Source: Flavobacteriaceae bacterium (GTDB lineage Bacteria; Bacteroidota; Bacteroidia; Flavobacteriales; Flavobacteriaceae). From it: a stretch of DNA of 64,000 nucleotides. Where the stretch lies: NCBI GenBank assembly GCA_030726725.1, contig JANRDC010000023.1, positions 1-64,000 of the forward strand. Direction: 5' to 3'. The translations under genes were made by a program, and so were the position numbers. The notes under the pieces were generated by a model. That model saw only the letters and a list, made by a program, of their open reading frames with translations, made no database searches and was not told the origin of the DNA. Positions 39,463-41,564 of the stretch are shown here, piece by piece. Position 1 is the stretch's first letter. Every line of letters begins with the position of its first letter.

Positions 39463-40332
39463 TTATACTTTAGAAAATTTTCTTCTGTAGTCGTAGGGCG
39501 TGGTTTGGGTATGCGCTTTAAAGTGCCTGAAGAAATTGGACAGGTTGGTAAACCCACACTCATAGCCTATGTTTTTGATGTCCAATTCAGTTTCCATCAA
39601 GAGTTGAATGGCGTGGTTAAGACGGTATTCGTTGAGGTAGGAAATAAATGTTTTGTTGGTTGTTTTTTTAAAGAAACGGCTAAATGAACTCGGATTCATG
39701 TGGATGAGCTCCGCTACATCATCCAGACTGATGGGGTCTTTAAAGTGCTCTTCAATGTAGTTGAATACTTTTTTTACCCGCTCGTTTTCTTTTAGACTTC
39801 CGATAAATGCTTTTCCGTTGGCATTGAGCATTTGCTTGTCCTCAGAGATAGCGAGCTCGTTGAGTATGTCGATGAGTTCTAGATAGCGCTGAAAAGGCTC
39901 CATGTTTTTCAGTTCCAGGAGTCGGTATCCGATGTAGTGTTTTACCTGTTCTGAAAAAACAATACCGTGATCGGAAAGTGTGAGCAATTCCCAGATTTTC
40001 TTGAATATGGGGACTTGTTCAATCGCATTGCCCAAGAAGCCAGGTTTAAAATGGACCACTACTTCTTTGCGTGTGTCTGTAAAGTAATCTGTAAAACCGT
40101 GGTGTGGGACGTTAGAGCCAATTAATACCAATTCGCCATCGGTGTAGTTGGACAAGTGCATGCCAATATGTCTTTTTCCAGATCCCTCGTTGACGTACAC
40201 CAATTCATAGTCGATATGAAAGTGCCAACCGACCTCTTTCTTGTTGGGAAATTCACAGTCAAAAAACTTGAGTGACACATCCGAAAACTCTGCAGGTACT
40301 TCTTCGTAAATGGGGTCAATGCGCTGAATCAT
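39463..40332 (-). CDS. AraC-family transcriptional regulator
   Basis: Cupin-like N-terminus; ISLDDVAELIHMNPSSFSRFFKKTTNKTFISYLNEYRLNHAIQLL...IGYECGFTNLSNFFRHFK. Confidence 0.93.
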   Translation of the reverse strand: MIQRIDPIYEEVPAEFSDVSLKFFDCEFPNKKEVGWHFHIDYELVYVNEGSGKRHIGMHLSNYTDGELVLIGSNVPHHGFTDYFTDTRKEVVVHFKPGFLGNAIEQVPIFKKIWELLTLSDHGIVFSEQVKHYIGYRLLELKNMEPFQRYLELIDILNELAISEDKQMLNANGKAFIGSLKENERVKKVFNYIEEHFKDPISLDDVAELIHMNPSSFSRFFKKTTNKTFISYLNEYRLNHAIQLLMETELDIKNIGYECGFTNLSNFFRHFKAHTQTTPYDYRRKFSKV

Positions 40333-40428
40333 GAGGAGATAGTATAATGCTATGTATTAAATTAACGTTTTTCTAACACAAAACGCTCATTGTGTCATAA
40401 ATATACACTTTTTGGATAAACGTCTGAA

Positions 40429-40458
40429 TTTAATTTCACGTTTTTTCCGATAATTTTG
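40429..40458 (+). promoter_or_regulatory. Orphan promoter TTTA-N18-TAATTTTG
   Basis: TTTA 40429-40432 and TAATTTTG 40451-40458, plus strand, no annotated gene downstream on this strand. Confidence 0.45.
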
Positions 40459-40462
40459 TAAA

Positions 40463-40558
40463 ACAATAAAGAGGAAATGGGGTGGTTTCCATTCCTCTGG
40501 TTGATTTTAGTTGATTTTTAGTTTGGAAAGCACCCTCAGCAACGAGGGTGCTTTTTTT
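40463..40558 (+). ncRNA. Candidate small RNA or tiny-peptide transcript
   Basis: Follows the orphan promoter; bulged hairpin GAGGAAATGG/CCATTCCTC; ends at a strong plus-strand terminator. Contains a 14-codon ORF (40477-40521, MGWFPFLWLILVDF). Confidence 0.35.
40527..40558 (+). terminator. Rho-independent terminator, plus-strand polarity
   Basis: AAAGCACCCTC-AGCAAC-GAGGGTGCTTT followed by T-run; minus-strand side has only TTTCC. Confidence 0.8.
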
Positions 40559-41564
40559 ATGCACCGACTTCGTAGGTTTCTCCAGAAAAGAAAAGTTCGT
40601 CTGTGTTGTGGTATTTTGCTTTCGCTACTGCCGCCTGCTTTACCTCGTGCAGTCGTTCTTCTAATGTAGTATCTGGAACCGCGCGAATGATACCGGTAAC
40701 CATGGGATACTGAAGTGACACCAACATATGGTGCAGGGTCGGGTCGGGTTCCTTTGCATCGTGCACCAAAATATCAGCTTCAGTAATCCCATCCTCTCCG
40801 ATGGTGACTACGGCTAATTTAAGGCCGCGAAGCACCAATCCTTTGTCGCGATCTTTGCCAAAGATCATGGGTTTACCGTGCTCCACATACAATTGTTTAT
40901 CCTCCCTCACAGATTTATCCGTGACATGGCTAAAGCAACCGTCGTTAAAAATCACGCAATTTTGAAGCACTTCTACTAAAGAAGTCCCTTTAAATTGGTG
41001 GCATTTGATAAATAGATCGGTCATTTCCTTGGGGCTATTCCCCGCTACACGCGCAAAGAATCTCGCTTGCGCCCCAAGGGCGAGTTGACCTACTGAAAAT
41101 GGAGGTTGCACATTGCCTAAGGGCGAAGATTTGGTTTTGAGTCCCAAGGTCGAAGTAGGGGAGAATTGGCCTTTGGTCAATCCGTAGATTTCGTTGTTGA
41201 ACAGAATCACATTGAGGTCTACATTGCGGCGCAATAAGTGGATAAAATGGTTGCCGCCAATGGACATCGCATCCCCATCTCCTGTGATCATCCAAACACT
41301 TAAATCGGGATTGGACAATTTTACACCGGTGGCTATTCCAGGAGCCCTTCCGTGGATACTGTGCATGCCATAGGTGTTCATGTAGTAGGGAAAACGCGAG
41401 GAGCAACCGATGCCAGAAATAAATACGATATCCTCTCTGCGCACACCCACTTCTGGCAAGGCTTTTTGCATGGCACTTAAAATCACGTAGTCATCACATC
41501 CCGGACACCAACGCACCTCTTGGTCGCTGGCAAAATCTTTGGGGGTATAGATTGGTTTTTCCAT
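40557..41564 (-). CDS. 2-oxoacid:ferredoxin oxidoreductase subunit beta
   Basis: WCPGCDDYVIL, ITGDGDAMSIGGNHFIHLLRRNVDLNVILFNNEIYGLTKGQFSPTS. Confidence 0.94.
   Translation of the reverse strand: MEKPIYTPKDFASDQEVRWCPGCDDYVILSAMQKALPEVGVRREDIVFISGIGCSSRFPYYMNTYGMHSIHGRAPGIATGVKLSNPDLSVWMITGDGDAMSIGGNHFIHLLRRNVDLNVILFNNEIYGLTKGQFSPTSTLGLKTKSSPLGNVQPPFSVGQLALGAQARFFARVAGNSPKEMTDLFIKCHQFKGTSLVEVLQNCVIFNDGCFSHVTDKSVREDKQLYVEHGKPMIFGKDRDKGLVLRGLKLAVVTIGEDGITEADILVHDAKEPDPTLHHMLVSLQYPMVTGIIRAVPDTTLEERLHEVKQAAVAKAKYHNTDELFFSGETYEVGA

Follow-up and report, generated by a model that had tools for sequence, protein, structure and literature searches.

A conserved intergenic unit in a small Flavobacteriaceae clade: a candidate AraC-linked small RNA with complementarity to nutrient-uptake mRNAs

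In Bacteroides thetaiotaomicron, the sRNAs GibS and FopS repress translation by pairing over the ribosome entry site (PMC7366714, PMC11697453). A flavobacterial intergenic sRNA, Rfp18 of Flavobacterium psychrophilum, is predicted to pair with the mRNAs of exported proteins (PMC9723704). Our literature search found nothing relevant on AraC-linked sRNAs in Bacteroidota. To our knowledge, sRNA regulation of SusC-type receptors has been worked out in gut Bacteroides only. Here we describe an orphan unit in a 64,000-nt stretch of DNA from a Flavobacteriaceae bacterium (contig JANRDC010000023.1, positions 1 to 64,000, hereafter the window). It probably encodes a trans-acting sRNA of about 93 nt, linked to an AraC-family regulator, that would repress mRNAs of nutrient and carbohydrate uptake by pairing through its linker, with a second sRNA from contig C16 of the same genome (G000) acting alongside.

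The features of the locus are as follows.

39463-40332, minus strand: AraC-family regulator (Pfam HTH_18 and cupin), divergent neighbour and proposed controller, with homologues that have a divergent promoter in most of the relatives examined
40394-40428, no strand: operator-like region GTCATAAATATACACTTTTTGGATAAACGTCTGA, identified by PWM score, between the back-to-back AraC (minus) and putative sRNA (plus) promoters
40429-40558, plus strand: orphan unit of promoter, hairpin, linker and terminator, all elements confirmed in the sequence
40429-40458, plus strand: promoter, with a weak −33 element TTTA (40429-40432), N18 and the −7 element TAATTTTG (40451-40458)
40463-40556, plus strand: predicted sRNA of about 93 nt, its 5′ end placed from the −7 box, based on promoter and terminator positions, fold and conservation
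40471-40497, plus strand: hairpin 1, 9 bp with a 1-nt bulge and an 8-nt loop, GAGGAAATGG (40471-40480) pairing with CCATTCCTC (40489-40497)
40477-40521, plus strand: 14-codon ORF MGWFPFLWLILVDF, judged not to be a gene (ATG at 40477, TAG at 40519-40521; start TTG in sister species G002)
40498-40526, plus strand: U/G-rich linker UGGUUGAUUUUAGUUGAUUUUUAGUUUGG, 29 nt, the proposed seed; mostly unpaired, invariant and complementary to translation start regions
40527-40558, plus strand: intrinsic terminator, conserved, with an 11-13 bp stem (40527-40554), a 6-nt loop and a T7 run to 40558
40557-41564, minus strand: 2-oxoacid:ferredoxin oxidoreductase (KOR) beta subunit (Pfam TPP_enzyme_C), convergent neighbour

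The initial annotation had described TTTA-N18-TAATTTTG, a bulged hairpin and a terminator of plus-strand polarity between two minus-strand genes, and every one of these elements is in place. The TAATTTTG element is a TAnnTTTG-type promoter box, unchanged across the three species aligned, and the weak −33 element is without the TTG, whereas many tRNA promoters of the same genome have it. The predicted RNA has a fold energy of −36.8 kcal/mol against −20.5 ± 2.9 kcal/mol in shuffles (z −5.6), hairpin 1 and the terminator forming while the linker stays largely open. The unit is missing from the output of a simple sigma-70/terminator scan because that scan is built for promoters of the E. coli type and for a narrower class of terminators. 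The order of promoter, hairpin, linker and terminator looks like that of an attenuator or leader of a distal plus-strand gene; however, the downstream genes lie on the minus strand for about 3.5 kb and no plus-strand gene follows the unit, which leaves such a role scarcely credible.

The unit is found at the same location in two sister species, G002 and G005 (FCJ.26 and UBA3440; Flavobacteriaceae MAGs of the same genus). From TAATTTTG to the T-run, three of 111 columns differ from the window unit in each comparison (97% identity), while 28-51% of the 4-fold degenerate sites in the flanking AraC and KOR genes have changed in the same species comparisons (Fisher p 3e-7 to 1e-19). The unit is kept far beyond neutral expectation. 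Conservation of the terminator hairpin alone, which the initial annotation had set against an sRNA, is not the pattern observed: the 29-nt linker is 100% identical in the three species. In G005, an A-U pair of hairpin 1 has become U-A, a compensatory change that retains the pairing, and the bulge nucleotide is variable; this covariation amounts to one pair and is not significant in a shuffle control with three species only. A DNA search did not find the unit in the congeners G003 or G004, leaving three carrier species, and a pattern search for the promoter-to-hairpin stretch found none outside the clade. Matches beyond the genus to a covariance model of the three copies, run over 301 family genomes, are weak (at most 37 bits); the resemblance seems to lie chiefly in terminator and composition.

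These data also bear on whether the unit serves its convergent neighbour in cis, as a bidirectional KOR terminator and an antisense RNA to the KOR 3′ UTR. The terminator hairpin begins beside the KOR stop codon and is able to fold on the minus strand as well, so the geometry behind the antisense proposal of the initial annotation holds. Yet the T-run has plus-strand polarity, the minus strand offering TTT only, and promoter, hairpin 1 and linker are conserved too, though needless for a KOR terminator. We regard a role confined to cis as improbable; the evidence favours targets in trans.

The initial annotation had further allowed for a dual-function RNA or tiny peptide gene; its 14-aa product would be hydrophobic. 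The reading frame is open in all three species, and GAGGA precedes the start. On the other hand, GAGGA sits 1 nt from the ATG, within the hairpin stem, and the ORF carries just two substitutions among the three species, ATG to TTG in G002 and F to Y in G005; synonymous changes in the 14 codons are absent from all three. The F-to-Y change reflects one half of the A-U to U-A exchange in hairpin 1. Since the sole substitutions are thus a start-codon loss and half of this compensatory exchange, the peptide is rejected as very unlikely. A dual-function sRNA, for which a conserved start and coding-type substitutions would be the marks, was considered and set aside. The locus very probably is a gene for a regulatory RNA of about 93 nt rather than a peptide gene, and the sRNA proposal is supported by conservation, predicted structure and target complementarity. 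Like trans-encoded sRNAs in general, the unit has its own promoter and intrinsic terminator and no conserved ORF, and its conserved, unpaired putative seed shows start-region complementarity above chance.

In most of the AraC homologues examined, across the family and the order, a TAnnTTTG box lies on the opposite strand, 110-168 nt upstream of the AraC start; the gene it drives codes for a small secreted protein that fits no Pfam family. Across the family (L021-L042), the AraC gene stands beside a divergent gene for a secreted protein of ~195 aa, with a conserved operator-like region, GTTAA...GCAcATAAAttGG...GATGT, 25-57 nt upstream of TAnnTTTG. With a PWM built from 22 AraC-divergent promoters of relatives, the region at 40394-40428, whose spacing to TAnnTTTG is the same, scores higher than all except 1-4 of 2000 shuffles, and its score lies well below that of typical family members. 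Taken together, the weak −33 box and the operator-like match suggest AraC-dependent transcription, with the AraC regulator controlling the sRNA promoter.

In G003 and G004, a divergent promoter at the same position (121 vs 118 nt from the AraC start) drives a gene for a 141-aa protein, whose 3′ UTR ends in a similar linker and terminator; no homologue of this protein was found in G000, G002 or G005. We infer that the divergent AraC promoter drives a secreted-protein gene in relatives and an RNA in the window genome. The unit might then be a functionless remnant, left when the AraC-controlled secreted-protein gene was deleted and its promoter came to adjoin its own 3′ end and terminator. A remnant would drift, however, and the identity of unit and linker set against the turnover at 4-fold sites, as well as the complementarity of the linker to start regions, makes this unlikely. 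Loss of the secreted-protein gene may instead be how the sRNA originated.

Other non-coding units occur next to AraC genes in relatives. At L031, L032 and L040, the divergent unit is likewise non-coding and ends in a TTTAGTTTAGTTTAGTTGG-like linker and terminator; at L040 (+150 to +770 upstream of AraC), another operator-like region and promoter come next, and then the secreted-protein gene. In G004 (L019, 3165-3310), an orphan unit with a TATATTTG promoter, hairpins, a GTTTAGTTTGTTTGTTTG linker and a terminator lies beside an AraC/secreted-protein pair.

The whole genome of the window organism (1.735 Mb, 246 intergenic terminators) was scanned, and orphan promoter-terminator units with a U/G-rich TTTAGTTT-type linker number two, the window unit and the following one.

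C16 10471-10558 of G000 (L105), plus strand: second unit of promoter, hairpin, UUUAGUUUAGUUUG and terminator, with TATCTTTG and ATCAAATCATTTGAGTTGGTTTAGTTTAGTTTGA, from the orphan-unit scan

The remaining orphan units are mostly tRNAs, one SRP RNA-like unit, short mRNAs and weak matches. Over ~70 nt, the C16 unit of G002 and G005 matches that of G000 at every position (100%), despite changes in its promoter spacer, and the fold of its RNA has a z of −3.7. The UUUAGUUUAGUUUG linker is not a general feature of flavobacterial terminators, being rare in the three genomes G000, G025 and G036; it is present too at some mRNA 3′ ends in relatives. At L109, L110, L113 and L116, a TTTAGTTTAGTTTG linker and terminator come directly after the stop codons of protein genes (SusD-like in L109), and these are possible 3′ UTR-derived sRNAs.

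Both linkers are complementary in sequence to mRNA leaders rich in A and C. We counted exact complements of at least 12 nt between −35 and +6 of start codons, which were called crudely: the window linker matches 7 start regions against 1.08 for dinucleotide-shuffled linkers (1/1000 as high) and the C16 linker 6 against 0.32 (0/1000 as high). At 11 nt there are 9 (window) and 10 (C16) places vs 3.4 and 1.3 in shuffles, and at 9-11 nt the window linker alone is modestly enriched. Genome-wide complement counts are not raised for either linker, the excess being confined to start regions, and the matches are located in the linker when mapped along both RNAs. As an empirical control, we took 249 sequences preceding intergenic terminators: both linkers rank in the top three for matches of 12 nt (7 each against a mean of 0.45), equalled by one unrelated sequence, C21:28684.

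Complementarity of at least 11 nt to one or other RNA is found at 16 distinct genes, several named from Pfam and the rest by eye. The best site of the window RNA is 18 nt of perfect complementarity from −9 to −26 of a Nuc_H_symport nucleoside/sugar symporter gene (C6:8761), with a duplex of −28.6 kcal/mol. It also matches 14 nt, ending at −2, of a SusC-type receptor (C29:11749), and further candidate targets include an SSF (sodium:solute) symporter, a 3-keto-disaccharide hydrolase and an oxidoreductase, among others. The C16 RNA matches a POT-like MFS transporter (16 nt), an M28-like peptidase (14 nt), an isomerase-like gene just upstream of the symporter (13 nt) and SusC-type receptors (12 and 11 nt), which points at a gene set overlapping that of the window RNA. 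Three of the 16 candidate targets are SusC-type receptors (p 3e-5 to 1e-4); the receptors longer than 900 aa all have at least 9 nt (4/4) and mostly at least 11 nt (3/4), and smaller TonB receptors at most 6 nt. A cluster at C6:7500-12980 (L095) holds the oxidoreductase, isomerase-like, symporter and 3-keto-disaccharide hydrolase genes, and four of its leaders are complementary to one or both RNAs.

The symporter site is sharply conserved: G002 has the same 18 nt and flanks, although the stretch immediately upstream has diverged. The isomerase site is unchanged there as well, but the entire leader is conserved. Such a site is missing from the symporter leader of G003 and G004, the two congeners in which the DNA search did not find the unit. 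The window-genome linkers show no enrichment against G004 start regions in a 400-kb sample, as expected where no copy of the sRNA was found; the linker of the AraC-associated orphan unit of G004 shows none against its own start regions either (400-kb sample).

We hypothesize the following sequence of events. The AraC-family regulator, encoded back to back with the unit, would control the sRNA promoter through its TAnnTTTG box and poor −33 box; the 5′ hairpin and terminator would flank an unpaired 29-nt linker; and this linker would pair over 11-18 nt just upstream of the start codons of mRNAs for the nucleoside/sugar symporter, SusC-type receptors, the sodium:solute symporter and genes of the 3-keto-sugar cluster. 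Judging from its position, such pairing would block ribosome entry, and the second sRNA of the same design, on C16, would act on an overlapping gene set. Given that the exposed linker could pair with mRNAs of sugar-uptake genes around their starts, the RNA probably turns their translation off. Transcription of the unit, its control by AraC and the direction of regulation, repression rather than activation, are all read from the sequence.

More broadly, and tentatively, since we rate this as possible rather than probable, a small Flavobacteriaceae clade without detectable Hfq or RRM_1 may have swapped the secreted-protein target of an ancient AraC module for an sRNA. With its C16 look-alike, this sRNA would form a two-RNA nutrient-uptake regulon (SusC-type receptors, MFS, POT and SSS transporters, 3-keto-sugar catabolism), and its target sites would have arisen in the same clade. 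If so, a flavobacterial example whose seed lies elsewhere, and for which no RNA-binding partner is known, would hint that control of glycan and nutrient uptake by RNA is widespread in Bacteroidota. One could also follow, by comparing close relatives, how an sRNA regulon is born: the AraC module would serve a protein gene in relatives and an RNA gene in the window genome, and the best target site is confined to carriers of the RNA.

Finally, the window RNA can be set beside described sRNAs. No Rfam family reaches its gathering score, and a permissive scan, which gave sub-threshold matches only, lists neither GibS nor FopS. The covariance model of BTnc049, a Bacteroides sRNA (RF04179) on whose function our literature search found nothing, matches over its full length at 40466-40560 with 29.1 bits, far under the gathering score of 81.9, and membership was rejected. 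BTnc049 and the window RNA share a 5′ hairpin, a UAGUUUAGUU-rich linker and a terminator, and the match may rest on terminator and composition. Rfp18, compared by description only, differs in having its seed in the third stem-loop and metalloprotease targets (PMC9723704). An RRM_1 protein, comparable to RbpB, the RRM-1 partner protein of GibS and FopS, was not found in the window genome, although the positive control was detected in a Bacteroides, and neither was Hfq; the window RNA therefore has no obvious protein partner. Unlike GibS and FopS, whose seed is at the 5′ end and whose design exists in 14 copies, the window RNA carries its putative seed between hairpin 1 and the terminator, is linked to an AraC regulator and has two copies of its design here. 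The likenesses are an intergenic location, a Bacteroidota promoter and an intrinsic terminator (PMC7366714, PMC11697453), together with a long AU-rich single-stranded seed pairing, by prediction in the window RNA, at the start codon region. FopS acts on SusC-type receptor mRNAs, and the window and C16 RNAs would do likewise, judged by complementarity alone. In its predicted action, the window RNA is GibS/FopS-like, and it lies outside those families.
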